Assembly (NCBI GenBank): GCA_021804965.1
Contig: JAJZGG010000020.1
Location: 1 to 32,124 of the forward strand
DNA: 32,124 bases
Direction of reading: 5' to 3'
From: Acidobacteriota bacterium
GTDB taxonomy: Bacteria > Acidobacteriota > Terriglobia > Terriglobales > Acidobacteriaceae
The position numbers were made by a program, and so were the translations under genes. Numbering within the stretch: position 1 is the first letter of the stretch; each line of letters starts with the position of its first letter. Under the pieces are notes generated by a model that saw only the letters and a list, made by a program, of their open reading frames with translations, was not told where the DNA came from and did not search any database. Positions 4,918-31,727 of the stretch are shown piece after piece.

Positions 4918-6003
4918 ATGGACTCTTCCCGGCAAACACTGCTTCCCCATCCCGATGCGCCGTACAATCAGAGTGTGCTGCTGCGGGAGATTCCCACCTC
5001 AAACGCGCCGTCTTTCCCTGCCGCCACCGCCCAACCCAGCCCCGGCCGACTGCTCATCTGGTGGCATCTCACCAGCCTGGACGCTCCCACCGTCGCCGTC
5101 TGCTGGTGCCTGGCGCTGGCCCGCGTCACCCATGTCCATCTGCCGCTCTGGGTCCCGGTCGCGCTCGGCCTTGGCACCTGGTCCATCTACCTCGGCGATC
5201 GCCTGATGGACGCCAAGCGCGCCCTGGCCCCGCTGCGCCAGCGCCACTGGTTCCACTGGAAGCACCGCCAGATCCTGCTGCCCGCCGCCATTCTCAGCCT
5301 CGCCGTTGCCCTCGCGCTGGTCCTGCGCCGCATGCCGCCCGCCATCCGCGACCGCGATGCGCTGCTGGCCCTGGCCGCCGCCGTCTACTTCCTCGCAATT
5401 CACAGCCGCAGCGCAGCGTCAGACCCCATGGAATCCCTCCACTTTGCCGATGACGACGCTGCCGCTGCACCAGCCTCCCATCCAGCCGCCCATCCAGCCG
5501 CCCAGGCAGCCGCGCCATCGCTGTCCAGCCGAGTGTTGCCCAGTCAAGCGTTGCCCAGCCAAGCGCAGCCGTCAGCTATCCGCCGCCTCCGCCGCCTCTT
5601 CACCAAGGAAACCTTCGTCGGGCTCATCTTTGCCCTGGTCTGCGCGGCTCCTGCGGCCACGCGTGCCGCCGGCGGCTACGCCGTGCTCGTCGCGCCCGTC
5701 GCGGCCTGCTTCCTGCTCGCATGGCTCAACTGCTGGCTCATCGAGCGCTGGGATGCAGGCCGCAGCGGCGGCTACCTGCGCCAGCTCGCGCTGGCCGCTG
5801 CCGCGTCCCTGGCTGCCCTGCTGGCTTTTCTTGGCCACTCCGGCGCTGCCGGCTGGTTTCTCGTCGCCATGGCAGCCAGCGCCCTGCTGCTGGCCTGGCT
5901 GGAGCGCCATCGGCTCCGTCTCGGTGCGCTCGTCCTGCGTGCCGCCGCCGACCTCGTCCTGCTCACGCCGCTGATTTTGCTGCTGGGGCGACCGGGCCTG
6001 TGA
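4918..6003 (+). CDS. Polytopic membrane protein (about nine TM), distantly UbiA-like
   Basis: The protein has about nine hydrophobic segments: two before YLGDRLMDAKRAL, two before a low-complexity loop, and five after it, ending LTPLILLLGRPGL. The count of nine and an Asp-containing motif after the second helix faintly recall UbiA-type prenyltransferases, but the NDxxDxxxD signature is absent, so function is unknown. The middle loop (about residues 175-220) is built from tandem repeats (see 5477-5565). The start is uncertain: ATG 4918 or GTG 4975, the latter just after a TACAAT box at 4962. The stop overlaps the GTG start of the methyltransferase (GTGA), so the two are translationally coupled and probably act on related substrates. 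Confidence 0.7.
   Translation: MDSSRQTLLPHPDAPYNQSVLLREIPTSNAPSFPAATAQPSPGRLLIWWHLTSLDAPTVAVCWCLALARVTHVHLPLWVPVALGLGTWSIYLGDRLMDAKRALAPLRQRHWFHWKHRQILLPAAILSLAVALALVLRRMPPAIRDRDALLALAAAVYFLAIHSRSAASDPMESLHFADDDAAAAPASHPAAHPAAQAAAPSLSSRVLPSQALPSQAQPSAIRRLRRLFTKETFVGLIFALVCAAPAATRAAGGYAVLVAPVAACFLLAWLNCWLIERWDAGRSGGYLRQLALAAAASLAALLAFLGHSGAAGWFLVAMAASALLLAWLERHRLRLGALVLRAAADLVLLTPLILLLGRPGL
5477..5565 (+). repeat. In-frame tandem repeats in the membrane-protein loop
   Basis: Three 12-bp units (5477-5488 and 5489-5500 both CCCATCCAGCCG, 5501-5512 with two changes) are followed by two 15-bp units (5536-5550 TTGCCCAGTCAAGCG, 5551-5565 with one change). Both periods are multiples of three and the loop stays in frame between hydrophobic segments. 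Confidence 0.8.
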
Positions 6004-6683
6004 CCGCTCCCGTCGGCACTGCGCCCAACTTCAACCGCCTCGCTGCGCCCTATCGCTGGATGGAGTACCTCAGCTTTGGTCCGGCGCTGGAGCGCTGCCG
6101 CTTCCACTTTCTTTCGCGCCTGGCCCACTGCCGCAGCGGGCTGGTCCTCGGCGATGGCGATGGCCGCTTCACCGCGCGCCTGCTGGCCGCTTACCCGGAC
6201 CTCCGCGTCCATGCCATCGACGGCAGTCCGGCCATGCTGGCCGCGCTCCGCCGCCGCGTGGCCGCTGCGGACGCCACGCACCGGCTCACCACCGAAACGA
6301 CCGATCTGCGCCTCTGGAGCGCACCCTCCGCCCCACCCAACCCATCCCTGCCCTTCACCCCCGACTGCATCGCCACCCATTTCTTCCTCGACTGCCTGAC
6401 CACCCTGGAAGTCGCCCGGCTCGCCCGCTCCCTGAGTGCGCTCGCTGCGCCCGGCTGCCTCTGGGTCGTCTCCGAGTTTGCCATCCCGGCCCGCGGCTGG
6501 ATGCGACCGCTGGCCGCAGCCCTCGTTGCCGCGCTCTATCGCGCCTTCGGCTGGCTCACCGGACTCCAGCCGCAGCAGTTGCCCGACCACCCAACAGCAC
6601 TGGCCGCCTCCGGATGGCACTGCATCCAGCGCCACCGCCATCTCGGCGGACTGCTTGTCAGCGAGCTCTGGCAGCTCCGCTGA
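6000..6683 (+). CDS. Class I SAM-dependent methyltransferase
   Basis: A 227-residue protein starting at GTG 6000, which overlaps the stop of the upstream membrane-protein gene. The Rossmann SAM-binding motif I is LVLGDGDGRFTARLL (residues 48-62), followed by the acidic residue of motif II, Asp74, in VHAIDGSPAM. A later segment (HFFLDCLTTLEVARL) fits motif IV, and CLWVVSEFAIP fits the strand after it. The motif has GDGDG rather than the commoner GxGxG. A C-terminal hydrophobic stretch (LAAALVAALYRAFGWLTG) resembles that of small-molecule or lipid methyltransferases. The substrate is unknown; coupling to the membrane protein hints at a lipid or quinone-like substrate, which is inference. Confidence 0.85.
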   Translation: MTAPVGTAPNFNRLAAPYRWMEYLSFGPALERCRFHFLSRLAHCRSGLVLGDGDGRFTARLLAAYPDLRVHAIDGSPAMLAALRRRVAAADATHRLTTETTDLRLWSAPSAPPNPSLPFTPDCIATHFFLDCLTTLEVARLARSLSALAAPGCLWVVSEFAIPARGWMRPLAAALVAALYRAFGWLTGLQPQQLPDHPTALAASGWHCIQRHRHLGGLLVSELWQLR

Positions 6684-6805
6684 TTCATCCCCACAAAATC
6701 GATTTCCGCCCTCACGACGATTCCCGCTTTCCCTCCATCCTGCATCTCAGGTATGGTAAGGGCGAGCGCACTTTTGCACCCCCGATGAACAGGGAGATTT
6801 TCACC

Positions 6806-9070
6806 ATGCCTGAAGCGATCCTCGACACCGCCGCCTCGCAGCCAGCATCGGCCGCCCAATCGGTCATCGGCAAGCCCACGCCGCGCATCGACGGCCCCCT
6901 GAAGACCACCGGAACCGCGCAATACGCCGCCGACTACCACTTTCCCGGTCTGGTCTATGCCTGGCCGGTGGCCAGCACCATCGGCAGCGGCGAAATCCTC
7001 GCCATCGACGCCGCAAAGGCGCAAAAGATGCCCGGCGTCCTGCTGGTTCTCCATCACGGCAACATCGCCTCGCTCTACCACGTCGGCCCCGGCAGCTACA
7101 GCGGTCGCGCCGGCGAATCCCGCCCCCTCTTTGCCGACAACATCGTCCGCTACTACGGCCAGTACGTCGCCATGGTTGTGGCCGAGACCCTCGAGCAGGC
7201 CCAGGCAGCCGCTGCCGCCGTCCACGTCTCCTACCAGGCGCAAACGCCCAACGTCTCCACCGAACTCAACGATCCCCAGACCGAAGAGCTCCCGCTGCAC
7301 ACCGAGAGCAAGCGCGGCAACGTCGAAACCGCCTTCGCCTCGGCTCCGGTGCAGATCGATGCCACCTACGTCACGCCCACCGTCACCCACAATCCCATGG
7401 AGATGCACGGCACCGTCGCCGTCTGGGACGGGCACCGCTTCACCCTCTACGAATCCTCCCAGGGCGTCGTCAATCACCTCAACGTCATGGCGGAGATGCT
7501 CGGCGTCCCGCGGGAAAACATCCAGGTCATCAGCCGCTTCATGGGCTCCGGCTTCGGCGGCAAGCTCTTTCCCTGGCCCCACTCCCTGATGGCCGCCATC
7601 GCCAGCCGCCAGCTCGTTCGCCCGGTCAAGGTTTACGTCCCGCGCGACCTCATGTTCACCGCCGTCGGCCACCGTCCGGAGACCCAGCAGCGCATCCGCA
7701 TCGGCGCACAAAAGGACGGAAAGCTCGTCAGCCTGCATCAGGACTACCGCAACCACACCTCGCTCGGCGACGACTTCCGCGAGAACTGCGGCGAGGCCAC
7801 CCCATTCCTCTACAGCACTCCCAACCTGCTCGTCACCTCAGCACTCGTCCGCCGCAACGTCGGCGCTCCCACCCCCATGCGCGGACCCGGAGCCGTTCCC
7901 GGCCTCTTTGCCGTCGAATCCGCCATGGATGAGCTGGCCGTCCAGCTTGGCATGGACCCGGTCGAGCTGCGCCTCAAGAATGACACCCTCATCGACGAGA
8001 GCACCGGCAAGCCATTCTCCTCGCGTCATTACAAGGAGTGCCTGCAGGTCGGTGCCGAGCACTTCGGCTGGAGCAGGCGCACCGCCGCCGTTGGCTCCAT
8101 GAAGCAGGGCGACCTCATCCTTGGCTGGGGTGTGGCCGGAGCCAGTTGGGGAGCCTTCCGCGGCGGCGCACAGGCACAGGTCTCGCTCCACGACGATGGC
8201 TCCGTCCGGGCCAGTTGTGCCACCCAGGACGTCGGCACCGGAACCTACACCATCTTCGCCCAGGTCCTCAATGACAAGACCGGCCTGCCGCTCAACCGCA
8301 TTCAGGTCGTTCTCGGAGACAGCTCGCTGATCCCCGGTCCCACCTCCGGCGGCTCCGTCGTCACCGCCACCATCACCCCGGCCATTGCCGACGGAGCAGA
8401 AAAGGCCATGCGCGCCATGCTGGAGCTGGCCTCCAGCACACCCGGCTCGCCCTTCCACGGCAAGCCCGTCAGCTCCCTGGCCTTCACCGACGGCATGGTC
8501 CACATTCACACCCAGCCTGCCGGCTCCGGCCAGCCCTTTCAGCAGTTGCTCCGCCTGGCCAACGTCGAAGCTGTCCACGGTGCCGGCCAGTCTGACCCGC
8601 TCTACGCCCTGCCGCAGGCCCGCAAATACTCCACCCACTCCTTCGGCGTCCATTTTGCCGAGGTCACCTGGGATCCCGGCATCGCCCGCCTGCGCGTCAG
8701 CCGCATTGTCTCCGTCATCGATGCCGGTCGCATCCTCAACCCCAAGGCCGGTGCCAACCAGATCATGGGTGCCGCCGTCATGGGCATCGGCATGGCGCTC
8801 TTCGAGTCCACCCAGTACGAGCCCAACAACGCGCATCCCATCAACAACAACTTCGCCGACTACATCGTCACCACCGCCGCCGACAGCCCCAGCATTGAGG
8901 TCCACTTCCTCGATTACCCCGATTACGCCATGGGCGAGTACGGCGCGCGCGGCATCGGTGAAATCGGCCTCGCCGGTGTCGCTCCCGCCATCACCAGCGC
9001 CATCCATCACGCCACCGGCGTGCGCGTGCGTCGGCTGCCGGCCCGCATCGAGGACCTGCTCAAGTCCTGA
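6806..9070 (+). CDS. Xanthine dehydrogenase-family molybdopterin-binding subunit (PaoC/YagR-like)
   Basis: A 754-residue large subunit of a molybdenum hydroxylase, closest in pattern to E. coli PaoC (periplasmic aldehyde oxidoreductase). Visible motifs are RIDGPLKTTGTAQYAADY near the start (residues 23-40), NPMEMH (196-201), GSGFGGKLFPWPHS, MRGPGAVPGLFAVESAMDEL with active-site-type Arg359, and GEYGARGIGEIGLAG near the end. Glu719 in the last motif is at the position of the catalytic base. AGGGAG nine bases before ATG 6806 supports this start over ATG 6785. The family normally works with a 2Fe-2S subunit and an FAD subunit encoded upstream; here the gene stands alone behind the methyltransferase. 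The stop overlaps the convergent TPR gene by 11 bases. No Tat signal is visible; in PaoABC-type complexes it is on the iron-sulfur subunit. Confidence 0.92.
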   Translation: MPEAILDTAASQPASAAQSVIGKPTPRIDGPLKTTGTAQYAADYHFPGLVYAWPVASTIGSGEILAIDAAKAQKMPGVLLVLHHGNIASLYHVGPGSYSGRAGESRPLFADNIVRYYGQYVAMVVAETLEQAQAAAAAVHVSYQAQTPNVSTELNDPQTEELPLHTESKRGNVETAFASAPVQIDATYVTPTVTHNPMEMHGTVAVWDGHRFTLYESSQGVVNHLNVMAEMLGVPRENIQVISRFMGSGFGGKLFPWPHSLMAAIASRQLVRPVKVYVPRDLMFTAVGHRPETQQRIRIGAQKDGKLVSLHQDYRNHTSLGDDFRENCGEATPFLYSTPNLLVTSALVRRNVGAPTPMRGPGAVPGLFAVESAMDELAVQLGMDPVELRLKNDTLIDESTGKPFSSRHYKECLQVGAEHFGWSRRTAAVGSMKQGDLILGWGVAGASWGAFRGGAQAQVSLHDDGSVRASCATQDVGTGTYTIFAQVLNDKTGLPLNRIQVVLGDSSLIPGPTSGGSVVTATITPAIADGAEKAMRAMLELASSTPGSPFHGKPVSSLAFTDGMVHIHTQPAGSGQPFQQLLRLANVEAVHGAGQSDPLYALPQARKYSTHSFGVHFAEVTWDPGIARLRVSRIVSVIDAGRILNPKAGANQIMGAAVMGIGMALFESTQYEPNNAHPINNNFADYIVTTAADSPSIEVHFLDYPDYAMGEYGARGIGEIGLAGVAPAITSAIHHATGVRVRRLPARIEDLLKS

Positions 9071-11003
9071 AGCCAGCTCGGCAGACGGCTGCGGCTGAGC
9101 TTACTGCGGCTGGGGTAAATTTGGCTGGCTGGCTGGAACCTGGCTGGCTCACCTGCGGCTGAGGTAAATTTGGCTGGCTAGCATTCGGCTGGGCGGCATC
9201 TGGCTGGGCAGCGTTCGGATGCTCAGGCACCTGCTGCCCGGCGCTGATCGGCGCTGCCGTTCCCCCGGCAGCCTCCAGCCGCGCAGCCGTGGCCCGCTCG
9301 GTGGCAGCCTCCGCCGTCCGTCCCTGCCGTTCATACCCCAGCGCCAGTTGCCGATGCGCCTCGGCAAAGCCCGGATCGGCAGCCACTGCCTCCTGGAACC
9401 GCCCCACCGCATCGGCAATCTGTCCCCGCAGCAGAAGTTGGTTGCCGGCATTCACGCTGAAGGTGGCCCGTTGCCGGTTCACCGCCACGCGCGTCAGCTC
9501 GGCTGCCTGCTTGCGCAGCTCCCTGGCCTCGGCCTGGCGACCCTCCTCGGCCAGCACCGCCGCCAGCGTAATCCGTGGCCCCGGCTGCGACGGCATCAGC
9601 TCCATCGCCCGGCGCAGTGCGCGCTCGGCCTCCGCGGACTGGTGCAGCTCATGCAGCACACTGCCCAGAATCGCCCACCCATCCCCATTCTGCGGACGCA
9701 GCGCCAGCGCCGTCCGCAGCGCGTCGGCAGCCTCCGGCAGCCGCCCCATCTGCATCTCCAGCACGCCCAGCGTATACGGAGGATCGGGCAGCCGCGGGTC
9801 CAGTGCCGCCGCCTGCTTCAGCTCGCTCACCGCATCGTCCATCCGGTCCTTCAGCTTGTAGGCCAGCCCCAGATCGTAGTGCAGCTCCGGATTTTTACCA
9901 TCCAGCTTCTCGGCCGCCTCAAACTCCCCGATGGCTCCGGCAAAATCCGACATCTGGATATATGCCACGCCCAGGTCCTCATGCAGCACCGCGTCGCCGC
10001 TCTTCTCCGCCAGCGCACGCTCAAAGTACGGGATCGCCTCCTTGGCCTTGCCCGTCTCCGTCAGCGCCAACCCCAGGTTGTTCAGCGCCGAGGCATCCTT
10101 CGGATCGGCTGCCACCGCCTTTTCAAAGTACGGAATCGCCTCCAGTTGCCGCCCCAGCCGCTGATAGCTCATCGCCAGCGCCAGGTCCGCGCCCGGCGGC
10201 ACGCCCGTCGCCGCATGCACCGCCATCTCCAGCGGTACCACAGCCTCCTCGTCGCGCTCCTCGCGGCTCAGCAGCAGCCCCAGCTGATAGGCCATCTCCG
10301 CATTGGCCGGCTGCATCTGCGTCGCCGTGCGCAGCTCCTGCTCGGCATCGGTCATCTGCTGCTCCTCGGCCAGCACCACGCCCAGATGCATGTGTTCCAG
10401 CGCCGTCTGCCCCGCATCGGCACCCGGCTCGGCACCCGACAGTGCCAGCGCCTTGCGAAACGCCGCCTCCGCCTGCGGCCACTGCTTCTGCTGCCCCAGC
10501 AGCGATCCCAGCTTGTCCTCCAGCGTCGGGTCCCCGGGATTGGCCTCCACCGCCTGCTCCATCGCCGCCTCGGCCGCAGCCGCACTCCCGGCACTCCGCG
10601 CCTCGGCCACATACGCCTGCGCCAGATTGTTCCGTATCCCCGCATCGCCCGGCTTCAACGCCAGCGCCTGCTTCAGCTCCGGAATCGCCTCCTGCACGCG
10701 GCCCAGCTGCACCAGCACCGCGCCCAGCGCCATATGGCCCTCCGGCAGCGTCGGCGCCAGCTTTACCACGCGCGCAAAGTCCGCCCGCGCCACATCCAGC
10801 TTCTGCGCCTCCAGCGCCGCATATCCGGCATGGAAGGCCGCATTGGCCTGCTGCAGGCTTCGCACGGAAGGCTGCTGCGCCGTTGCCGCCAGGCAGCCGC
10901 AGCAGACCGCAGCCACCGGCCACCAGCCAGTCCTGCCAGCCCCAACCCGGCTGCCCCCAACCCTGCCAGCCCAACCCATCCGTCTGCCGCCCTGCACCGT
11001 CAT
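9060..11003 (-). CDS. Secreted TPR protein
   Basis: A 647-residue protein made largely of tetratricopeptide repeats (about residues 50-590), with repeated signatures such as GHMALGAVLVQLGRVQEAIP, ALNNLGLALTETGKAKEAIP and LHYDLGLAYKLKDRMDDAVS, and roughly a dozen units. The N-terminus has a Gly/Arg-rich stretch then a hydrophobic segment (WWPVAAVCCGCLAATAQ) that looks like a signal peptide or lipoprotein signal. The C-terminus (593-630) is a run of pentapeptides ending in QP. TPR arrays bind other proteins; the partner is unknown. Its ATG overlaps the stop of the upstream TPR gene (ATGA), so the two are co-translated. Confidence 0.9.
   Translation of the reverse strand: MTVQGGRRMGWAGRVGGSRVGAGRTGWWPVAAVCCGCLAATAQQPSVRSLQQANAAFHAGYAALEAQKLDVARADFARVVKLAPTLPEGHMALGAVLVQLGRVQEAIPELKQALALKPGDAGIRNNLAQAYVAEARSAGSAAAAEAAMEQAVEANPGDPTLEDKLGSLLGQQKQWPQAEAAFRKALALSGAEPGADAGQTALEHMHLGVVLAEEQQMTDAEQELRTATQMQPANAEMAYQLGLLLSREERDEEAVVPLEMAVHAATGVPPGADLALAMSYQRLGRQLEAIPYFEKAVAADPKDASALNNLGLALTETGKAKEAIPYFERALAEKSGDAVLHEDLGVAYIQMSDFAGAIGEFEAAEKLDGKNPELHYDLGLAYKLKDRMDDAVSELKQAAALDPRLPDPPYTLGVLEMQMGRLPEAADALRTALALRPQNGDGWAILGSVLHELHQSAEAERALRRAMELMPSQPGPRITLAAVLAEEGRQAEARELRKQAAELTRVAVNRQRATFSVNAGNQLLLRGQIADAVGRFQEAVAADPGFAEAHRQLALGYERQGRTAEAATERATAARLEAAGGTAAPISAGQQVPEHPNAAQPDAAQPNASQPNLPQPQVSQPGSSQPAKFTPAAVSSAAAVCRAGFRT
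9123..9215 (-). repeat. 15-bp tandem repeats encoding xxxQP pentapeptides
   Basis: On the plus strand GGCTGG recurs about every 15 bases. In the minus-strand protein this gives NAAQP, DAAQP, NASQP, NLPQP, QVSQP and GSSQP. The array lies at the C-terminal end of the TPR protein, beyond its last helix. Confidence 0.85.
10932..10976 (-). repeat. 15-bp tandem repeats in the TPR protein N-terminus
   Basis: Three degenerate 15-bp units (10932-10946 CCTGCCAGCCCCAAC, 10947-10961, 10962-10976) encode a Gly/Arg/Val pentapeptide run (RVGGS, RVGAG and neighbours) just before the hydrophobic part of the signal peptide. Confidence 0.7.
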
Positions 11004-12106
11004 TTCTCCTGTGTTTGCGCCGGTTTGGGATCATTCCGGTGCTGGATCGCCACGGCCATCTCGTACTCCCGGGCAGCCAGCGCCCGTTCGCCCATCGCCC
11101 GATACGCCCGTCCCAGCTGCGTATGCGTCACCGCATTGCCCGGATCCATCTGCTCGGCATGCGCCAGATAATGCACCGCCTCGGCCGGCTCGCCCAATCC
11201 CGTCAGCGCCTCGCCCAGCAGTATGTACGGCCCCGTATCATTCGGCTCCAGCAGAATCGCACGATTCAGCACCTTGCGCGCCTTCTCATACTGCCCGCTC
11301 CGCACATACGCATCCCCCAGATGCTCATACAGATTCCCATTCAGCGGATTCAGCCGCTCCTCGCTCTCCAGCTCCGCAATGGCCTTCGGCAGGTCCGCCT
11401 GTGCCAGCGCAATCTCGCCCAGCAACTGGTGCGCCATCGGCAGTTTGGGATCCACCGCCAACGCATGCTGCACAAAGGCAATCGCCTCCGCCGTAAACTC
11501 CCGCCGCAGCAGCAGCCGCGCCGTGGCCACATACGCCGCCGGCGAGTCGGCAGCAAACCCGAACTGCTGCGCAAAGGCATGCCGCGCATCGTCATAGCGC
11601 TTCACGTCCATGTAGCAAAGCCCAAGCACATACTCCGGATCGATATTCGCCGAGCTCACCACCGCATTGGCCCGCTCCAGCAGCGGAATCGCCTCCGCCG
11701 GCCGCGCCAGCCGATACAGCGTCACCCCACGCATCTCCATCGCCTCGCGGTCGGCCGGATCCTCCGCCAGCGCCCGGGCAAAGGCCACATTCGCCTCCAC
11801 CAGCATCTGCTTCTGATACAGAATCTCGCCGCGCAGCCGCTCCACACCCGCCGGCTCCGGCTGCTTCTGCGCAAGCACGTTCAGCACCACCATCGCCGCC
11901 TCCAGCCTGCCATGCGATGCCAGTCGCTGCGCCTGCTGAAAGCTTGCCCCCGCCGCTGGCACCTCGGTCGGATTCCCTGTCGCCGCCTGCGCACCAGCCA
12001 CCCGTCTCCCGGCCACGCCACACGCCAGGCTCAGCACCACCAGCAGCGCAGCCACTCTCCGGCCTGTGCTCCTGCTCTTCGCTCCGTATTCCACCCGTCG
12101 ATTCAT
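11000..12106 (-). CDS. Secreted TPR protein
   Basis: A 368-residue protein from ATG 12106. The N-terminus MNRRVEYGAKSRSTGRR is followed by the hydrophobic stretch VAALLVVLSLACGVAG, giving a signal peptide that ends near VAGAQA. The rest holds about seven TPR-like units (for example AMEMRGVTLYRLARPAEAIP, LYEHLGDAYVRSGQYEKARK and THTQLGRAYRAMGERALAAR). The frame is open another 32 codons upstream to 12202, but that part runs through tandem repeats and is unlike a signal peptide. The stop overlaps the next TPR gene's start. The terminator at 12203-12235 separates it from the TonB receptor gene, so its promoter should lie at about 12107-12200. Confidence 0.85.
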   Translation of the reverse strand: MNRRVEYGAKSRSTGRRVAALLVVLSLACGVAGRRVAGAQAATGNPTEVPAAGASFQQAQRLASHGRLEAAMVVLNVLAQKQPEPAGVERLRGEILYQKQMLVEANVAFARALAEDPADREAMEMRGVTLYRLARPAEAIPLLERANAVVSSANIDPEYVLGLCYMDVKRYDDARHAFAQQFGFAADSPAAYVATARLLLRREFTAEAIAFVQHALAVDPKLPMAHQLLGEIALAQADLPKAIAELESEERLNPLNGNLYEHLGDAYVRSGQYEKARKVLNRAILLEPNDTGPYILLGEALTGLGEPAEAVHYLAHAEQMDPGNAVTHTQLGRAYRAMGERALAAREYEMAVAIQHRNDPKPAQTQEK

Positions 12107-12114
12107 CCTTGCAT

Positions 12115-12162
12115 CCCGCCTGTTTCCAGTCCCCGGCTGTTCCAGTCCCGCTGTTTCCAGTC
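12115..12162 (-). repeat. Degenerate 15-17 bp tandem repeats upstream of the TPR operon
   Basis: Three units all ending TTCCAGTC: 12115-12131 (17 bp), 12132-12147 CCCGGCTGTTCCAGTC, and 12148-12162 CCGCTGTTTCCAGTC. They occupy the presumed leader or promoter region of the TPR operon. Confidence 0.75.
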
Positions 12163-12202
12163 TAGGCTCATTTTCGGGCTCATTGTTTTCCGCCCTTGCC
12201 AC

Positions 12203-12235
12203 AAAAACTCACATGGGGAGCCGAAGCTCCCCATG
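12203..12235 (-). terminator. Rho-independent terminator with UUCG tetraloop
   Basis: On the minus strand a 10-bp perfect stem (CATGGGGAGC, pairing 12235-12226 with 12221-12212) is closed by a TTCG loop and followed by TGAGTTTTTG. It lies 24 bases after the TonB receptor stop, so the receptor mRNA should end here and not include the TPR genes. Confidence 0.92.
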
Positions 12236-12259
12236 CGATTCGTTGCCTTGCGTTTGTGG

Positions 12260-15931: not shown

Positions 15932-15956
15932 GCGGTCTCCTGAGAAATACTCCAGG

Positions 15957-16765: not shown

Positions 16766-16768
16766 TCT

Positions 16769-18709
16769 CTAGATTCCCGCCCGGCTGCCGCACCGCTGTT
16801 TTCCTTCGCGGATTGCAACCTCCAGGGCCAGTGCCTGCCGATCATCCGGTGCAAAGGCCAGCACCTGTTCCAGTGCCGCCAGCGCATCCTCGCGATCCCC
16901 CAGCCCGCATTCGACCGTCGCCAGGTTCACCCCGGTCGCCGTCTGTGCCGGGTCCAGCGCCAGGGCGCTCCGCCACAGCCGCACGGCGGCCTGCGCCTGG
17001 CCATGCCGGGCCAGAATCAGGCCCAGATTCCCTTCCGCAAAGCTGTCGTCCGGCTGCTTGCGCAGTGCCTGCGCATAGGCAGAGGCCGCCGGCTGGTCGG
17101 CTCCGCCCAGCTGCTCCAGGAATCCAAGCTGTGCCTGCACGGTCGGATCGCTGCTGCCGGCCGGCTCTGCCGCCACCTGCTTCAGGATCGCCAGTGCGCG
17201 GGCATAGGCGGCCCGATCCCCCAACGCGGCAAACTGCGCATAGGCCAGCCCCAGCTCCCGGCCGTCGGTCGGCTGCAGCATCCCCTTCGCACCCACCTCC
17301 ACCAGCGGCCCGTGGGTGGCCGGCGGAATCGATCGCCCGGCAAACCGCCGCACAATCCGATGATCCGTCACCTGTTCGTGCGCAATATCGTTTGATTCGG
17401 CCCGCTGCATATGGCAGCTCGCGCAATCCCGCTGCTCCGGATGGTGCGTCGCGGAAAATCCGCCCCCGGCCGTCTCATGGCAGCTCAGGCAGCGTCCGCG
17501 GTACCAGTCCACGCGCTCGGCGGCCGTCATCAGCCGGTCGCTCCCATGCGGATCGTGGCAGGTCGTACACGTCATCCGATCTCCGGAGGCCCGCTTGCAG
17601 GCGCTGGCCAGCAGCGCCTCCCACTGCCCGGTCGCGCGTCCTCCCGAGCCCTTTTCGCTGGCATGCACATAGAAGCTGGCATACTGCCAGATGCTTTCTC
17701 CGGGACGAAAATCCTCCAGCTTCCGGCCTGCATGCACAATCGCCGCCTGGCCTTCCATATGGCAGCTCAGGCAGATCGAGTCCCGCGCTTCGGCCGGCAG
17801 CCGGTCCAGCACCAGCATCGACGCACGCCCACCGGTCGCCAGATGCTCGGACGGGTCGCCGTGGCAGGCCACGCACCCGATCCCACCCTGCGCAAACGGC
17901 GCTCCCGCATAGCGGTTCCGAGCCTGCTCCATCGACGGCCGCGCTCCCGTTGCGTGGCAGCGCAGGCATCCCGGATCCACCGGCAGCGTCAGCGGCATCT
18001 CGCTGGCCTGCAGAAAATTCGGCGCCATATCCCACATCCGCTTGCGGGCATACCAGTTGATCGGTGCCTCAAACCAGTAGCCATCCTCCTCAAACAGGTA
18101 GGTCCTTCCGCGCAGGCCGGAGCCGATCGCATAGCGCAGCTGGCGCGCCCCCTGCAGCGCCGGCAGCTCCAAGCCCTGCTGGGTCGAGCCCTGCTGCGTC
18201 GAGCTCTGCCGCGTCGAGCTCTGCCGCGTCGAGCCCGGCAACCCCGAGCCTTGAATCCGAATCGGCGGCCGCGAATACAGCAGCTCCGCCTGCCCATGCA
18301 CCGCTTCAATCCGGTACTCCACGCCGGTCGTCGCCTGCCGGAAGTCAGCCGGAATCAGCCCATCCATGGCCGTGCCGCTGGCCCGTGCCATCGGCGTCTT
18401 TTCGTAGCGCTCCACAATCGCCCGGTGGCAGGCGGCGCAGCGCTCATCGGGATTGGCCGCCGTGCCCTTGCCCGCCGAGCCGCTGGCCGCCGCTGGCTGG
18501 CTGGTTCGGTGGCTCGGCACTCTGTCCGTTGCGGCCCACGCCCGTGCGCTTCCCGCCAGCGCACCGGTTGCTGCCAGCAGCAACGCCAGCACCCGGCTCG
18601 CGCGCAGCAGCATGCCCGGCCGGATGACTCCAGCCCCCCGCAACAAACCTGCGCTCTGCAACCTGTTTCCCGGCAAACCCAGCACACTACCAGCAGAATT
18701 GGCTTGCAT
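16769..18709 (-). CDS. Heptahaem c-type cytochrome fused to TPR domain
   Basis: Seven CXXCH haem c motifs are visible (numbered from an upstream in-frame codon at 18733): CAACH 99, CLRCH 256, CVACH 287, CLSCH 321, CTTCH 389, CLSCH 415 and CASCH 437. After these, residues about 490-645 are TPR-like (AYAQALRKQPDDSFAEGNLG). A signal peptide (MLLRASRVLALLLAATGALA, then AWA) places it outside the inner membrane. ATG 18709 has GAGGAG 9 bases upstream; ATG 18613 would start directly at the signal peptide and is the main alternative. The first haem is separated from the others by a domain with conserved aromatics (YWFEAPINWYARKRMWDM) and a repeat-built insert. The likely role is electron transfer or scaffolding in the periplasm; partner and substrate are unknown. 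Confidence 0.88.
   Translation of the reverse strand: MQANSAGSVLGLPGNRLQSAGLLRGAGVIRPGMLLRASRVLALLLAATGALAGSARAWAATDRVPSHRTSQPAAASGSAGKGTAANPDERCAACHRAIVERYEKTPMARASGTAMDGLIPADFRQATTGVEYRIEAVHGQAELLYSRPPIRIQGSGLPGSTRQSSTRQSSTQQGSTQQGLELPALQGARQLRYAIGSGLRGRTYLFEEDGYWFEAPINWYARKRMWDMAPNFLQASEMPLTLPVDPGCLRCHATGARPSMEQARNRYAGAPFAQGGIGCVACHGDPSEHLATGGRASMLVLDRLPAEARDSICLSCHMEGQAAIVHAGRKLEDFRPGESIWQYASFYVHASEKGSGGRATGQWEALLASACKRASGDRMTCTTCHDPHGSDRLMTAAERVDWYRGRCLSCHETAGGGFSATHHPEQRDCASCHMQRAESNDIAHEQVTDHRIVRRFAGRSIPPATHGPLVEVGAKGMLQPTDGRELGLAYAQFAALGDRAAYARALAILKQVAAEPAGSSDPTVQAQLGFLEQLGGADQPAASAYAQALRKQPDDSFAEGNLGLILARHGQAQAAVRLWRSALALDPAQTATGVNLATVECGLGDREDALAALEQVLAFAPDDRQALALEVAIREGKQRCGSRAGI
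18174..18248 (-). repeat. 15-bp tandem repeats encoding a Ser/Thr/Gln insert in the cytochrome
   Basis: Five units (18174-18188, 18189-18203, 18204-18218, 18219-18233, 18234-18248), each ending in GAG; the third and fourth are identical (CTCTGCCGCGTCGAG). They encode GSTRQ, SSTRQ, SSTQQ and GSTQQ between the first and second haem sites. Confidence 0.9.
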
Positions 18710-18890: not shown

Positions 18891-19700
18891 ATGGACGAAC
18901 TCACCGCCCTTGCGTCGCCCCCCACCGGGCTGTTGGCTCCTGCCCGTCGTCGTCTTGCCTTCTTCCGTCTCTATGCCCGCTGGCACATGCGCCGCCACTT
19001 CCATGCCCTGCGCGTCGCCAATGCCGACCGCATCCCCCGCCAGGCCGAATCGCTCATCCTCTTCGGCAACCATGCCTCCTGGTGGGATCCGCTCGTCGCC
19101 ATCCTGCTGGCCGAGTCGCTTCTGCCCGAGCGCGACCACTACGCGCCCATGGACGCGACAGCCCTCCAGCACTACTCCATCTTTCGTCCCCTCGGCTTCT
19201 TTCCCGTCGAAAACGGCACTCCCCGCGGCGCGGCGCAGTTTCTGCGTGCCGGCCGCCAGGTGCTTGCCCGTCCCGGCTCCGTGCTCTGGATCACCCCGGA
19301 AAGTCAGTTTCAGGATGTCCGTCGCCGGCCCATCGAATTCCGCTCCGGCCTCGGCACGCTCCTTTCGCGCTCCGGCCGCCTCACCTGCCTGCCCGTCGCC
19401 ATCGAATACACCTTCTGGAATGAGCGCCTGCCGGAGATCCTCGTCAACATCGGCGAACCCCTCCACATTGCCGACGGCCGCATGGAGCAGCCCCGCACCT
19501 GGACCAACCTGCTCGCCTACGCCCAGGCTGCCACCCTCGACGAGCTGGCCATGCTCGCCATCGAGCGCTCCCCCGATGCCTTTGTTCCCCTGCTCGAAGG
19601 CCGCTCCGGCATTGGCGGCGTCTACGAGCTTTGGAAGCGACTGCTCAGCCTCGTCACCGGACGACCCTACCACCCCGATCACGGAAGCCTGCACCCATGA
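18891..19700 (+). CDS. PlsC-like acyltransferase
   Basis: A 269-residue member of the lysophospholipid acyltransferase superfamily. The catalytic NHx4D motif is FGNHASWWDP (His61, Asp66), followed by FFPVENGTPRGAAQFL as the acceptor-binding block and WITPESQFQDVRRRP (135-145) in place of the usual EG-R block III. It transfers an acyl chain to a hydroxyl group at the inner membrane. GGAG six bases before ATG 18891 sets the start. The stop overlaps the following glycosyltransferase start (ATGA). That pairing is known for CruD-like acyltransferases and CruC/CrtQ-like glycosyltransferases that decorate carotenoids; a glycolipid role is the alternative. Confidence 0.85.
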   Translation: MDELTALASPPTGLLAPARRRLAFFRLYARWHMRRHFHALRVANADRIPRQAESLILFGNHASWWDPLVAILLAESLLPERDHYAPMDATALQHYSIFRPLGFFPVENGTPRGAAQFLRAGRQVLARPGSVLWITPESQFQDVRRRPIEFRSGLGTLLSRSGRLTCLPVAIEYTFWNERLPEILVNIGEPLHIADGRMEQPRTWTNLLAYAQAATLDELAMLAIERSPDAFVPLLEGRSGIGGVYELWKRLLSLVTGRPYHPDHGSLHP

Positions 19701-20836
19701 ACTCACTCCCCCTGGCTCTGGCCTGGGCGGCACTTGCTGCCGCCGCACTCCCGCTGCTCCTCTTCCTCACCAACATCCGCCTCTTTCGCCGTCCCTGCCT
19801 CTGCCGGGACAACCCCGAGCTGCTGCCCGTCTCCGTCCTCATTCCCGCCCGCAATGAGGAGCGCTCCATCGCCGCCGCCGTCCAGTCCGTCCTCGCCTCC
19901 CAGCAGGTCACCCTCGAGCTGATCGTCCTCGATGACGCCTCCACCGACCGCACCGCCGAGATCGTTCGCTCGCTGGCTGCCTCCGATCCGCGCCTGCGCC
20001 TGGAGACAGCCCCGCCGCTGCCTGCCGGATGGAACGGAAAGCAGCATGCCTGCTGGCATCTGGCCTCGCTCGCCACCCATCCCGTCTTCTGCTTCCTCGA
20101 TGCCGACGTCCGCCTCGGACCGCTTGCCCTCTCCCGCATGCTCACCGAGCTGCATCCGGACTCCACCGGCATGGTCACCGGATTCCCCCGCCAGCAGACC
20201 GAAACCTGGCTCGAGTGGCTGCTTCTGCCGCTCATTCACTTCATCCTGCTCGGCTTCCTGCCGCTCGTCGGCGAGCGCTACACGCGTCGGCCCGGCTTTG
20301 CCGCCGGTTGCGGCCAGTTTCTGCTCGTCCGCCGCTCCGCCTACTACACCTCCGGCGGCCACTCCGCCATCCGCACCACCATGCATGACGGCCTCCTGCT
20401 GCCGCAGCTCTTCCGTCGCCACGGCATCCAGACCCGCCTCTACGACCTCAGCGCCGACGCCTCCTGCCGCATGTACCGCAATGCCGCCCAGGTCTGGAGC
20501 GGCCTCAGCAAAAACGCCACCGAAGGCATTGCCGCGCCCTCGCGCATCGGCATCTTCACCCTCCTGCTTGGCCTTGGCCAGCTCCTTCCGCTGCCGCTCA
20601 TGCTCTGGGCCCTGTCTGCCGGCAACGGCCGCGTCTATCAGCTCGCGCTCACCGCGCTCAGCTTCGGCCTCATCCAGCGCATCGCCTCGGCCGTCCGCTT
20701 CCGCCAGCCCATGCGCAGCGCCCTGCTCCATCCGCTCGGCATCCTCGTCCTGCTCGTCCTGGAGTGGACCGCCCTTGCGCGCAAGCTCCTCGGTCGGCCA
20801 GCCCGATGGAAGGATCGCAGCTACCAGCCTGTCTAG
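19697..20836 (+). CDS. Family 2 glycosyltransferase (CrtQ/CruC-like)
   Basis: A 379-residue membrane glycosyltransferase. An N-terminal hydrophobic helix (residues 5-27) is followed by the GT-A core: VSVLIPARNEERSI (45-58), VLDDASTDRTAEIV (77-90), GWNGKQHACWHL (111-122) and the metal-binding Asp-Ala-Asp at 135-137 in FCFLDADVRLGP. The motif RMYRNAAQVWSGLSKNATEG is the acceptor-side region found in carotenoid and hopanoid-type GT2 enzymes. At least three C-terminal hydrophobic segments anchor it. It is translationally coupled to the acyltransferase, suggesting sequential addition of a sugar and an acyl chain to one lipid. The last codons (SYQPV) and stop lie inside the 16-bp repeat array. Confidence 0.87.
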   Translation: MNSLPLALAWAALAAAALPLLLFLTNIRLFRRPCLCRDNPELLPVSVLIPARNEERSIAAAVQSVLASQQVTLELIVLDDASTDRTAEIVRSLAASDPRLRLETAPPLPAGWNGKQHACWHLASLATHPVFCFLDADVRLGPLALSRMLTELHPDSTGMVTGFPRQQTETWLEWLLLPLIHFILLGFLPLVGERYTRRPGFAAGCGQFLLVRRSAYYTSGGHSAIRTTMHDGLLLPQLFRRHGIQTRLYDLSADASCRMYRNAAQVWSGLSKNATEGIAAPSRIGIFTLLLGLGQLLPLPLMLWALSAGNGRVYQLALTALSFGLIQRIASAVRFRQPMRSALLHPLGILVLLVLEWTALARKLLGRPARWKDRSYQPV

Positions 20837-20946
20837 CTACCAGACTGGCTAGCTACCAGCCCGGGTAGCTGCCCGTCCAAATAGCTGCCAGCCCAAAGAT
20901 CTGCCAGTCCGGCTGGCCACCAGTCCGCGTGGCAGCCCATCCAGAT
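20819..20946 (+). repeat. Array of eight degenerate 16-bp tandem repeats
   Basis: Eight consecutive 16-bp units start at 20819, 20835, 20851, 20867, 20883, 20899, 20915 and 20931. Unit 1 is AGCTACCAGCCTGTCT, unit 2 AGCTACCAGACTGGCT, unit 5 AGCTGCCAGCCCAAAG and unit 6 ATCTGCCAGTCCGGCT. The glycosyltransferase stop codon (20834-20836) spans units 1 and 2; the rest is intergenic. Divergence increases to the right. Confidence 0.92.
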
Positions 20947-21040
20947 GAGGAATCAGCGATGCCCACCCCGGAATTCGGCCCTTATCCCGCACCGCCGCCC
21001 GCCGGGCAAACCACCCCGTTTTCGCTAAAATTGGAGTAGG

Positions 21041-21805: not shown

Positions 21806-21807
21806 AG

Positions 21808-21855
21808 CTTCCCAGGCGTGATACTTCCCAGCCCTGCGTTTCCCAGCCAGCGTTC
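21808..21855 (+). repeat. Three degenerate 16-bp tandem repeats after the TPR-like gene
   Basis: Units CTTCCCAGGCGTGATA (21808-21823), CTTCCCAGCCCTGCGT (21824-21839) and TTCCCAGCCAGCGTTC (21840-21855) start three bases past a stop codon, between convergent genes. Confidence 0.8.
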
Positions 21856-21866
21856 CCCCGGCCCGC

Positions 21867-24035: not shown

Positions 24036-24256
24036 TGCCATCCTCCCCTGCAAACACCGGCACGCTGCTGCCGCCTCGCAGTACTGCGACTATAGAAGAT
24101 TCCCCGCGCCTTCGGGAATCCTCCCCCTCCAGCCTCAAAATCCCGTGAATTCCAGCCCTCGCCTGCATTTCCTCGTGGATTTCTGCACCGCCCTCTGCTT
24201 ATACTGTCCGCAGGTCGCCACGCACGGTTTCCGCGGCCTCTCATCAGCTCTGGTCT

Positions 24257-25399: not shown

Positions 25400-25489
25400 C
25401 CACCCCGGAGCATGCCCCGCAGCCCCATTCCCGCCGCACAGGAGACCGCAACCGCACGACGAAACCACACTTTGCCCGAGGAGATTCCG

Positions 25490-26110
25490 ATGTCGCTTGG
25501 TAAAGCCATGATCCACGCCCGCAAGCAGAAGTCACTCGCAAAAGCCGCTCGTGTCCTGCCCCAGGAGGGCCAGCTCTGCACCGCATCCGGCCAGGTGCTC
25601 CAGATGCCCGTCCTCGTGCTCAACGCCTCCTACGAGCCCATCAACATCTGCGGCGCACGCCGCGCGCTGGTCCTCGTCCTCAAGGGCATCGCCCGCACCG
25701 AGGAGGAGCACGGCGTCCAGCTTCACGCCCAGCGCAGCCGCATGGCCATGCCCTCCGTCATCCGCCTGCTCGAGTACCGCCGCATCCCCCACCAGACCCG
25801 CGCGCTCTCCCGCAAAAACATCCTGCTCCGCGACCGCAACACCTGCCAGTACTGCGCCACCGTCCTCTCGCCCAACGAGCTCACGCTCGACCACGTCCAC
25901 CCGCGCTCCCGCGGCGGCAGCTCCACCTGGGAGAATCTCGTCGCCTGCTGCCACGCCTGCAACCGCCGCAAAGGCAACCGCCTGCTCAGCGAAATCGACG
26001 ACATGCACCTGCTGCGCGAGCCGCGCTCCTTCAGCCTCCACACCAGCCGACAGATCATGCGCATGCTCGGCCGCGGCGACGACCGCTGGCGCAAATACCT
26101 CTTCTACTGA
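25490..26110 (+). CDS. HNH endonuclease-domain protein
   Basis: A 206-residue protein. The N-terminal part has [26 protein letters not shown], typical of a widespread family of chromosomal HNH proteins. The HNH fold follows: CQYC (119-122), [11 protein letters not shown] with Asp134-His135, Asn149, and the zinc-binding CHAC (154-157) with NRRKGN. AGGAG lies 7 bases before ATG 25490, so the longer in-frame ATG at 25412 is not used. The family is common beside housekeeping genes and its role is not established. It is 90 bases downstream of the comF-like gene on the same strand and its stop overlaps the convergent gene by 7 bases. Confidence 0.88.
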
Positions 26111-28890
26111 CGTTTCCCCGGCCTGTTCCCGGCCGCCGGTCCACTGGCTGACTGTTGCGCCGCACGCGCTGCCAGCATCTTCGCCAGATCAATCCGGTAA
26201 AGATCCTGCGCCGCCGTCACCACCAGCAGTTGCTGGTGCGCCCGGTCAAAATGCGCCGCCAGAATCGCCTGATCCAGCATCCTATGCGCCAGCAGTCGTC
26301 CATGCTGCGTGTCGTAGAGATTCAGCTCCTGCATGCGATTCGTAGCCGCAATCATGCCCAGCGAGTCATCCCCCGCCACCGCGCGCCCAAAGAAGGCAAA
26401 CAGCCGCCTGCCATCCTTCACGCGATAGATCGCCGTCTCATTGTGCATGCTGTAGACGGCCATCATCCCTCCGAACAGGTCCGCCTGGTGCTCCTCGCAG
26501 AAGCAGGCCTTCGCCGGAACCTCCGGGCTGAACAGGATATGCTCCGGCTTGCCCGTCCGGTTTGCGATCACCTCCACCACCGTCCCCTTCGGATTGAAGT
26601 ACGACTCCAGGGACTGGTCCGAGGTGCGTATCAGCTTCCCATGTGCATTCCAGTTGTGGAAGTTCGTCACCAGCAGCGTCCGGTCTCCCTCGGCTGGAAC
26701 CGGCTGCGGAAGACCCTGATAATACGTGCGTGTCCAGAGCTTTTTCCCGCTCACCGCATCGAAAGCCGCCAATCGCACCCCTTTGCTGTAGTCCACCATG
26801 CGATCGATCGGGTGGTAGCGCAGCGTCACACTTCCCATCCGGATGGGAAACGAAAAGGGATCCGTGATCTGGTCAATCTCGTGCGGAATGAAATTTGCCT
26901 GCAGGCTGCCCGTATCGCTCACCCATCCGGCCAGAAAGGGAAATCGCTCCTGCACGCGCTGGCCCGTCGTGATATCCCAAACCCCGCTCCGTGAGCGGCT
27001 GGAGACCGCCAGATAGCGGCCATTCGGGCTGAAGCTGCTGGTCTTCAACTCGGTCAGCGGCGTCAGCGGCAACCGGATGCTTTCGAGCGCACCCTTTCCC
27101 GTCATCACTCCAAGCCTTCCATCCGGCAACTCCATGGCAGTCTTGTTCCCGGCCCGATCCACCGCATCGTAGAGATACTCGCCGTCCAGCTTCCCCGTCA
27201 TCGGATCAACCGCGCCCTCCGCCGCCTTGTCCAGCGGCCCAAACAGCACATGCTTCCCATCCGTAAGGCTCCGCAGCTTTCCATAGGGCAACGGAAACCG
27301 CTTCAGCACCTCCCCGCCCGGAAACGTCGCGGTGCACATCCGAAACATCTGATCCATGGACCCTGTCGGACCACTCCAGTCGCAGAGAAAGACCATCTTC
27401 TCCGATCCCGCAAACGTGAATGGCTCCTGGCGGATATACGTCGGCATGTTGTTCGCGTTGACGGTCTGTCGTGCCAGGGTGTCATACACCAAAAAATTCA
27501 GACCGGAAGCCGCCACAAAGTAGCGGCCATCCCGCGACCAGCGCATCTCAACGGGAAATGGCCCCTGACCGCTTGGATATTGGTTGAAGTCGTGGTTCTT
27601 GTAAAGCATCGTCCCACGCTTCAGGTCGGCCAGTTCCAGCCACGTATACGTCCCCATCACGCCCACCGAAGGGGTGACGCAGGCCATCGCCTCGCCATCC
27701 GGGGACAGGCTCGTCTGCAGGCAGCCGGCATAGTTCACAAAGTCCTGAATGTTGGTCGGCTGGCCCGTGGCCACATCCCATTTCTCCACATGCATGTCGT
27801 TGTAGTGGAAGACCACGCTCTTCGAGTCCGGCGAAAACTGCGCCTTCTCTGCCAGAAACGCATCGATCGAAAACATCCCTCGCAGCGGCGCGGTGGAAAG
27901 CACGTGAATCTGGTAATCGTCCTGCGCCAGCGCATATCTGCCATCCAGGCTCAACCGCACCTGCTTTTCGCCCGGCTGCATCGGCGGGGTCAGCTCCAGC
28001 GGCTTCACTCCCGAGGAGTCGGCAACAAACGGATCAATCCGGCCCTGCTCCACCGCATTCTGAAAGGCCTTGAAATCCGGATTCTCCCCTACCTTCTCCG
28101 CCTGGCAGCTTTTCGGCAGCGAGTGCACCAGCTTCTGCGCCATCCGCACCCGCAGGCTGATCACCGGCGTCAGGTAAAACATATCCGTCAGCAGATTTCC
28201 CGTGTAGCCGCCATTGTCATTCACCCGGTCCAGAAACGCAGGAAATGCCTCCGGATCGAAATGCGCCCGGATCATCGCATACAGACCCACGCGGTCCGCC
28301 ATCAGCTCATCGTGCTCCTGCTCATCCGGGGAGAGATACGCATACGGATCGGTCGGCATGTTCAGCATTCGTTCAAACGTGTCATACACATCCGCACGCC
28401 CACCCAGATGCTTCCTGTGCAGCGTGCTCTCGATCCGCCTCGTCACCGCCGTTGCCGAGTGATGGATGTAGATCCTTCCAATCTCCTGCGCCAGCATCGC
28501 CGCAAGCTCATCCTCGCTCTGCGCATCCATGATCAGCTTCCGGCTGATGTACACATGTCCGCCCGCCAGCGAAAACGCACGCATATCCGGCGATTCGAAG
28601 ATGCGAAATGTGTAGTGAATCGGCGTCGGCGGAAGCTGCTGCAACAATCGCTGCCCCAGCGCGTCCAGATACTCGCTCTGGCCCTCGGGAAGCAGGATGT
28701 AGCGCGGCTCAATCATGTCCGCCTGCGCATCCCCAAGCCACTGCTCCTGCTGGTCAGAGAAGAGGTTCGCGCGCCGGATCCGCAGCTGCGGCTGCGGCAT
28801 CGTACACGCTGTCTGTGCCACCGCAGATGCGCCCGTCAGCAGCATCCCCGCCAGCACCCAACCCGCACGAAATCCATTCCTGCGCCGCAT
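26104..28890 (-). CDS. Secreted M48-fold pseudopeptidase fused to beta-propeller
   Basis: A 928-residue protein with signal peptide ([20 protein letters not shown], cleaved near AVAQ). Residues about 60-250 resemble BepA-type M48 metallopeptidases: [22 protein letters not shown], then [18 protein letters not shown] where family members read DELAAVLAHEIAHV. The third-ligand motif E-x3-D is present in ELMADRVG. Numbered from the GTG 18 bases upstream, the zinc motif HExxH reads Gln141-Glu142-Ile-Gly-Arg145, so both histidines are lost. The rest contains WD-like or PQQ-like blades ([40 protein letters not shown]) forming a propeller. The function is probably binding rather than proteolysis. It follows ligA by 77 bases on the same strand. 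Confidence 0.85.
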
Positions 28891-28967
28891 GCTCCAGTTC
28901 CCCCGCACCCTCCGTCAAACCCGCTCCCTGGGAAAGAGTTGCCCACGCAGCAACCGCTGCCCAGCGC

Positions 28968-31193
<2,226 letters not shown>

Positions 31194-31649
31194 TCAGCCC
31201 TGCAGTGCTGCCAGCACCTCTTCGGCGTGGCCCTCCGGCTTCACCTTCGGAAAGATCTTCACCAGCGTCTGATCCGGGCCAATCACAAACGTCGTCCGCT
31301 CGATCCCCCAGACCTTCTTCCCATACATGTTCTTTTCCTTCAGCACGCCAAACTGGTTGCAGACCGTCTCATCCACATCCGCCAGCAGCGGATACGGCAG
31401 GCTGTACTTCTCCCGAAACTTCCGCTGTGCCTTCGGCGTATCCCGCGAGATGCCCAGCACCACCGCTCCCGCCGCTTGCAGTTTCGTGAAAGTATCCCGA
31501 AAGCCGCAGGCCTCAATCGTGCAGCCAGGCGTGTCTGCTTTGGGATAAAAAAAGAGTACGACCGGTTTGCCGGCAAAGTCCGTCAGGTTCACCGTCTGTT
31601 CCTGGTCGTCCTGGAGTGTAAAGTTGGCCACTTTCTCGTGTACTTCCAT
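31194..31649 (-). CDS. bcp: Peroxiredoxin, Bcp/PrxQ type
   Basis: A 151-residue thiol peroxidase. The active-site block is YPKADTPGCTIEACGFRD with peroxidatic Cys43 and resolving Cys48, the C-x4-C pair of the PrxQ subgroup. GISRDTPKAQRKFREKYSLP and FVIGPDQTL are further family signatures. It reduces hydrogen peroxide and organic peroxides in the cytoplasm using thioredoxin. AGGAG before ATG 31649 fixes the start, although the frame stays open far upstream. It is first of three minus-strand genes (bcp, ligA, pseudopeptidase) and divergent from the secreted protein at 31705. Confidence 0.95.
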   Translation of the reverse strand: MEVHEKVANFTLQDDQEQTVNLTDFAGKPVVLFFYPKADTPGCTIEACGFRDTFTKLQAAGAVVLGISRDTPKAQRKFREKYSLPYPLLADVDETVCNQFGVLKEKNMYGKKVWGIERTTFVIGPDQTLVKIFPKVKPEGHAEEVLAALQG

Positions 31650-31679
31650 CCTGCGCTCCTCGCTTTGCCCCGGCCTGTG

Positions 31680-31727
31680 CCAGCTTCGATCCCAGCTTCG
31701 ATACTTGCTTCGATCCCAGCTTCGATC
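31680..31727 (+). repeat. Four 12-bp tandem repeats between divergent genes
   Basis: Units CCAGCTTCGATC (31680-31691), CCAGCTTCGATA (31692-31703), CTTGCTTCGATC (31704-31715) and CCAGCTTCGATC (31716-31727). They lie 30 bases upstream of bcp and overlap the proposed start of the divergent gene. Confidence 0.9.

Follow-up and report, generated by a model that had tools for sequence, protein, structure and literature searches.

Introduction

Bacterial minisatellites, also called variable number tandem repeats (VNTRs), consist of a few tandem units of about 10–50 nt, the copy number of which differs between close relatives. For prokaryote satellites, repeat units divisible by three inside genes have been reported, as well as units of 12, 14 and 16 nt in two Burkholderia species (PMC6749651). 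Small variable segments flanked by short repeats have been explained by replication slippage, with most of the repeats involved shorter than 30 bp; in that work, strains within a species were compared at a threshold of about 20 bp, whereas sister species are compared here (PMC2884548). In this study, we analyzed short tandem arrays in a DNA stretch of 32,124 nt (positions 1–32124 of contig JAJZGG010000020.1, hereafter the window) and in further parts of the same genome. This study genome is a metagenome-assembled genome (MAG) of an uncultured member of the Acidobacteriaceae (2.97 Mb, 141 contigs, 87.5% complete). A sequence-only reading of the window had listed nine arrays and knew of no named system that explains them. 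We found that their anatomy is that of minisatellites/VNTRs arising by slipped-strand mispairing (PMC6749651). The arrays are head-to-tail copies of units of roughly 10–60 nt, they occur above chance and no mobile family is involved. Compared with bacterial minisatellites, they are short (mostly 2–4 copies) and their copies are imperfect; they are about 3.5 times as dense as in the genus sample and six times as dense as in the sister species. As a system, this is ordinary slippage, a formation mechanism that we infer, and it is the abundance, not the kind of change, that is unusual.

The arrays also resemble the hypermutability of simple sequence repeats (SSR) in mismatch-repair mutants, which likewise involves slippage and a lineage-specific excess. 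However, the study genome has a MutS homologue, and its branch is not lengthened in point substitutions. Units of 12–24 nt exceed the loops that mismatch repair handles. Literature searches on minisatellite tandem repeats in Acidobacteria and on tandem repeats in Acidobacteria MAGs from acid mine drainage found no paper.

Results

Array density in the study genome and its relatives

Arrays were defined with Tandem Repeats Finder (TRF) at a score of at least 50 and a period of 10–50, and overlapping hits were merged. We sampled 20 stretches of the study genome, the window among them, which add up to 320.8 kb or 11% of the genome, and found 78 arrays in them (24.3 per 100 kb). The window, with nine arrays in 32 kb, is typical of the genome, and 69 arrays in 288.7 kb remain when it is removed. 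Thus, the genome-wide habit that had been read from the window alone is real. For comparison, 13 of the 14 relatives from the same genus (G009 was left out) carried 90 arrays in 1,299.8 kb (6.9 per 100 kb), and single genomes ranged between 3.7 and 13.8. The array counts of the study genome and of these relatives differ with a Poisson P of about 3e-20. When only stretches of at least 10 kb were considered, the per-locus medians were 25.0 for the study genome (n = 15) and 5.0 for the relatives (n = 60; Mann–Whitney P = 3e-5). The closest of the relatives compared, the sister species G004, had eight arrays in 201.4 kb (4.0 per 100 kb). Other genera of the family, from which small samples were taken, contained 0 to 17.7 arrays per 100 kb. 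In the wider taxa (79 loci, 462.5 kb; L250, a record of the sister, was excluded from the original 80), 31 arrays were detected (6.7 per 100 kb), and the 37 loci with a GC content above 0.62 had 20 arrays in 215.8 kb (9.3 per 100 kb). Shuffled versions of the study sample yielded 16–28 arrays when the protein was kept (10 shuffles) and 3–12 when codon order was shuffled (10 shuffles), as against the 78 observed, so the counts do lie above those of shuffled sequence. In the sister, the eight arrays observed fall within the range of its protein-keeping shuffles (4–11). Taken together, these data indicate that the array abundance is real in this sample and that it is strongest in the study genome among those sampled.

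The arrays are unevenly distributed. Four of the 20 study-genome stretches carry none, and two stretches (L027 and L039) together hold 25 of the 78. Five arrays lie inside 600 nt of L027 (2333–2931), and a sister contig breaks in the same stretch.

An assembly artefact of the MAG, or the loss of array-bearing stretches at sister contig breaks, is a very unlikely explanation of the difference in density. Both genomes are draft MAGs, with one genome compared per species, and the contig break of the sister (around L027 2303–2469) coincides with an array cluster of the study genome. On the other hand, the copies are diverged and frame-keeping, and G007, a relative assembled into about 10 long contigs, still has 7.5 arrays per 100 kb.

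Periods, reading frame and encoded residues

Arrays were assigned to coding and intergenic sequence with genes from a small purpose-written caller, so that these classes are approximate; a further 18 arrays, which may lie in N-terminal extensions, were left aside. Here, we found that the period was divisible by three in 33 of 36 coding arrays but in only 10 of 24 strictly intergenic ones (Fisher P = 6e-5); the latter share is near one third. Outside this test, 16 of the 18 arrays in possible N-terminal extensions also had periods divisible by three. These data show a frame filter inside genes in this sample, and the difference between coding and noncoding periods that the sequence-only reading had suggested is confirmed. 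The exact values that it gave for these periods were too narrow. Intergenic periods, said to be about 16 or 12, range from 12 to 45 (12 twice, 14 five times, 15 four times, 16 three times, 17 and 18 twice each, and 19, 22, 34, 36, 40 and 45 once each), which is a continuous range around 14–18 plus a tail; the 16-nt period was a small-sample impression. Coding periods, said to be exclusively 15 or 12, span 12–30, and three of the 36 are not multiples of three. One of these exceptions is located in the window at 28242–28273 (period 16, 2.0 copies, a TRF hit) and is present at the same length in G004. In the segments encoded by coding arrays, Q, A, G, K, C, T, S and P are overrepresented, whereas F, V, Y, R, L and I are underrepresented. 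The GC content of the arrays is 0.679, that of their flanks 0.648.

Repeat units, motifs and junctions

To quantify the sharing of sequence between arrays, random segments of equal distinct length were used as reference. Five array pairs share a 10-mer where 6.1 are expected, and a single repeat family was therefore rejected, in line with the earlier statement that there is no common consensus. The units differ between loci and no consensus is shared at distant loci, as it would be in mobile repeat families (REP/BIME, small dispersed repeats). Together with the excess of frame-keeping periods, this absence of a shared family supports the proposed sequence of repeated local duplication and subsequent selection for frame.

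CCAG/CTGG cores, which had been reported to recur, were present in 32 of the 78 array units, where 23.0 would be expected; a count this high occurred in 4 of 400 draws. This is a modest excess, and its controls were unmatched for GC or coding class, which applies to all motif counts. An earlier interpretation of CCAG as pure composition (44 vs. 42.9; sharing 20 vs. 26.1, with controls that had more distinct words) was withdrawn after the control of equal distinct length. CAGGC occurred in 17 units (7.2 expected), a motif picked after seeing the data, and the likewise post hoc GCAGGC/GCCTGC in 12 of 78 (3.6 expected; 0 of 400 draws). The CCAG and GCAGGC counts would suit the spread of one or few mobile repeat families, or a motif that targets duplication, but arrays are richer in GC than their flanks, 10-mer sharing does not exceed expectation and there is no common unit. 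We consider this scenario highly improbable.

Hairpins were also considered as drivers of the arrays and were rejected: among GC-matched segments, the mean minimum free energy rank of 77 arrays was 0.56, so no hairpin excess was found. A hairpin is not required for slippage.

The junctions were inspected in 47 exact two-copy duplications (period 12–40, study genome and controls pooled). Microhomology of at least 3 bp was present in 23 of them, whereas a share of 6–8% is expected at the study-genome match rates of 0.26–0.31. Slipped-strand mispairing between short direct repeats leaves such junction microhomology as its mark. Fill-in of staggered breaks followed by Ku-dependent end joining would also produce units of 10–25 nt. 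However, Ku (PF02735) was found neither in the study genome (at 87.5% completeness) nor in seven of nine relatives, while G001 and G003 have it. Because of this lack of Ku, end joining is disfavoured, and since the junctions carry microhomology, we regard this largely refuted route as extremely improbable.

Comparison of the study genome with its relatives

The study genome and G004 are about 90% identical in aligned stretches, with a third-position divergence of 17.3%. As in minisatellites, copy number varies between close relatives, in this case between species. At 9074, 18172 and 30536 in the window, every relative that could be aligned across the locus is without the extra DNA, and the locus at 10931 is shorter in four relatives. 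These loci therefore represent gains on the lineage of the study genome or on the stem that it shares with G004. Three other loci do not fit a gain on this lineage: 21805 (G007 and G008 are longer), 31680 (G014 is 21 nt longer) and 28242 (same length in G004).

In 15 genes (19,367 sites compared), 472 substitutions were specific for the study lineage and 657 for the sister, so point substitutions are not elevated as they would be in a mutator strain. Since the study branch has fewer of them, a general mutator or a long branch was ruled out as cause of the excess of arrays. The substitutions of the sister lineage show a GC-to-AT excess (405 vs. 96), and its GC content is 1–3% lower in aligned stretches (L113, L071, L230, L231).

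Formation or retention of the arrays

On the basis of these data, we consider it likely that the arrays are ordinary slipped-strand minisatellites filtered by frame selection, with a lineage excess in formation or retention. During replication, the nascent strand would slip back by 12–24 nt and re-anneal on short microhomology, and the segment would be copied twice. Units may be gained or lost in further rounds, and the copies would become blurred by point mutations. Each array would represent an independent local event. Purifying selection would remove arrays that break frames or hit folded domains, and survivors would therefore be located in spacers, at gene ends and in linkers rich in Q, A, G, T, S and P, with units divisible by three. 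The lineage of the study genome would have formed or kept several times more arrays than its relatives.

Whether formation or retention differs can be explored by sorting arrays according to the match between their copies. Compared with the five nearest relatives, arrays with a match of at least 95% were enriched 2.7-fold, those with 90–95% 4.5-fold, those with 85–90% 2.3-fold and those below 85% 5.1-fold. Because the excess is present in every identity class, more formation, extending over a long time, is slightly favoured. Alternatively, arrays may form at an equal rate everywhere and be purged less efficiently here, either because the effective population is smaller or because the deletion bias is weaker, and older ones would then accumulate. 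We regard this alternative as plausible, though short of probable. It does not readily account for the enrichment of the two best-matching classes or for the three loci (9074, 18172, 30536) at which every relative aligned across lacks the extra DNA, but it is consistent with the strong enrichment of the most diverged arrays and with the about three units that the sister keeps at 20819, where the study genome has eight.

Several observations weigh against the interpretation given above, in particular against its formation part. No clear enrichment is seen among exact tandem duplications with a period of at least 10, which are the youngest (study genome 3.7 per 100 kb; other groups 0–7.5), and retention or a past burst therefore fits better than a currently high rate. 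The 2.7-fold enrichment in the best-matching class is based on 10 vs. 10 arrays. Nine of the 24 intergenic arrays match below 86%, which is beyond the ceiling of about 14% divergence estimated for copies made after the split from the sister; this again suits retention. At 20819, adjacent units differ at 2–7 of 16 positions, and these differences mostly exceed the third-position divergence from the sister. Over 48.3 kb aligned with G004, the study genome has 30 extra stretches of 9–200 nt (921 nt; 12 tandem-like) and the sister nine (136 nt; one tandem-like), but this 30:9 ratio is biased because the alignments were picked for the window and the two array-richest stretches, L027 and L039. The pairing of L039 with L204 crossed a non-homologous stretch and was excluded from these counts. 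In the only overlap that had not been chosen in this way (7.8 kb), extra stretches of at least 6 nt number four in the study genome and six in G004; at a threshold of 9 nt the counts are three and one, with two TRF arrays and none, a sample too small to decide. Moreover, an extra stretch in the study genome can equally be a loss in the sister, and such losses or weak removal in the study genome can explain part of the excess. As to the junctions, partial third copies could mimic microhomology or add to it. The excess of CCAG and GCAGGC hints at a sequence preference beyond simple slippage. Finally, no causal gene was found among five replication and repair families.

In both E. coli and yeast, duplications of this kind result from the loss of flap nucleases or exonucleases. 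A lineage-specific defect in replication or repair might raise formation; it could affect flap processing, mismatch repair or exonucleases that act on single strands, or consist in an additional error-prone polymerase. The excess is indeed lineage-specific and concerns duplications, not point substitutions. However, profile searches found the PolA 5'-nuclease, MutS, ExoVII, RecJ and one Y-family polymerase in the study genome, and across the ten genomes searched no gain or loss in these five families was unique to it. Neither a dedicated polymerase, which had been suggested, nor a lost repair gene was thus seen within these families. By eye, the PolA motifs resemble those of the sister (rows compared: G000, G004, G008, G013, G001), and loss of the PolA flap nuclease was rejected since the domain is present and its motifs look alike in the two species. 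G004 and G012 are the genomes in which RecJ_OB was not found, which is the opposite direction from explaining the excess. With all five families in place, we judge such a defect unlikely. It is conceivable, but rather doubtful, that a heritable change on this lineage acts as a mutator specific for duplications, which raised the formation of tandem duplications of 12–24 nt several-fold without raising point mutation and may favour CAG/GCAGGC-like sequence. Such a mutator would leave new linkers of low complexity and longer gene ends across the genome.

Arrays in the window

For the loci of the window, an ungapped repeat score was calculated in addition. Its yardstick was obtained from up to 400 draws of random 100-nt segments of the study genome (95th percentile 10, 99th percentile 13) and is approximate, as the flanked lengths over which the window loci were scanned varied. 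Of the nine arrays listed previously, six are recovered by TRF (5470–5565, 9168–9218, 12115–12162, 18172–18236, 20819–20910 and 31680–31727), whereas the one at 10932 is a borderline case. As repeats, 21808 and 30536 do not rise above background. The repeat score exceeds 13 at five of the nine (5470, 9122, 18172, 20819, 31680) and lies between 10 and 13 at 12115 (12) and 10932 (11). Neither 21808 nor 30536 gave a TRF hit even at a score of 30; those nearest to 30536 are at 30694 and 30795 (scores 36 and 39). The arrays at 18453 and 28242 are TRF hits that the earlier list did not contain.

On the plus strand, a 12-nt array (5470–5519, 4.1 copies) is followed by a 15-nt array (5525–5565, 2.7 copies), both TRF hits in frame with the gene 4975–6003. 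They encode PASHPAAHPAAQAAAP and SSRVLPSQALPSQA, and the locus has 12 and 27 nt more than G004, the sole relative aligned across it. The composite array at 9104–9218 (minus strand) combines a 49-nt duplication (about 9104–9182; repeat score 25 at period 49) with the 15-nt TRF array 9168–9218. It belongs to the C-terminal tail of a TPR protein (9060–11003, minus strand), where it encodes QP-rich pentapeptides, and contains 79 nt more than G004; G004, G007, G008, G013 and G014 are all 68–139 nt shorter. In the N-terminal region of the same protein, there is a weak 15/30-nt array (10932–10977, minus strand; TRF score 46), with a 24-nt extra stretch relative to G004 and 6–27 nt less in G013, G008, G014 and G012. 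The G007 orthologue of this TPR protein has a 15-nt pentapeptide array of its own near the N-terminus (L121 1063–1112). Upstream of another TPR gene (11000–11893, minus strand), the array 12115–12162 (TRF score 68) has units of 17, 16 and 15 nt and a net 14 nt more than G004; its coding status is uncertain, since an open frame reaches 12202.

Two arrays are in frame with a cytochrome/TPR gene on the minus strand (16769–18613). The first of them (18172–18236, minus strand; 15 nt, 4.3 copies, 92% match, TRF score 95) encodes STRQS/STQQG repeats, and all four relatives aligned across (G007, G008, G012, G013) are 63–75 nt shorter. The second (18453–18492, minus strand; 15 nt, 2.7 copies, TRF score 52) is located near the N-terminus. 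The G004 contig lacks about 1.7 kb of this gene (16857–18584), part of which is covered by the alignments with G007, G008, G012 and G013.

The 16-nt array at 20819–20946 (plus strand; TRF hit 20819–20910) extends from the last codons of a GT2 gene (19697–20836) into the spacer. It comprises eight diverged units, and adjacent units differ at 2, 3, 6, 3, 6, 6 and 7 of 16 positions. In the spacers of relatives other than G004, the array was not seen; different duplications were found instead in G007 (15 nt, 1.9 copies, 109–137 nt past the GT2 gene) and in G003 (20 nt, 2.0 copies). Between convergent genes, 21808–21862 contains a weak 16/15-nt repeat of an 8-nt core (repeat score 9, below the background 95th percentile). 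Here, the study genome has two 16-nt stretches more than G004; G014, G012 and G013 are shorter, but the locus is extended by 35 nt in G007 and, through an inserted gene, by 1007 nt in G008. This inserted gene of G008 (L183 4137–5039), which lies between the orthologues of the flanking genes, is methyltransferase-like and by eye resembles an arsenite methyltransferase.

At 30536–30605 (minus strand), the gene of the NAD-dependent DNA ligase (28968–31121, minus strand) carries an in-frame extra segment that is not a significant array (repeat score 9.5) and is 48–96 nt longer than in the three relatives aligned. Upstream of a peroxiredoxin gene (31194–31649, minus strand; Pfam), a 12-nt array of 4.0 copies was found at 31680–31727 (TRF score 75). 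The one relative aligned there, G014, lacks the repeat.

The opposite end of the window (1–3420) is a low-GC segment (0.52 in 1–2000) with a tyrosine integrase gene (2008–3276, minus strand; Pfam Phage_integrase). Beside this gene, the sequence at about 3385–3415 resembles by eye the 5' half of a tRNA, while ARAGORN reports no tRNA. This segment is probably the end of an integrated island.

Discussion

The study genome and its sister are about 90% identical in aligned stretches, yet their sampled array densities differ six-fold and their point substitutions in the opposite direction. This pair of species thus constitutes a natural experiment on the balance between formation and loss of duplications. 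The arrays also show a way in which proteins can lengthen their linkers, signal-region extensions and C-terminal tails. A TPR protein offers an example, in which a pentapeptide array stands at the C-terminal tail in the study species and near the N-terminus in G007, built independently in the two.

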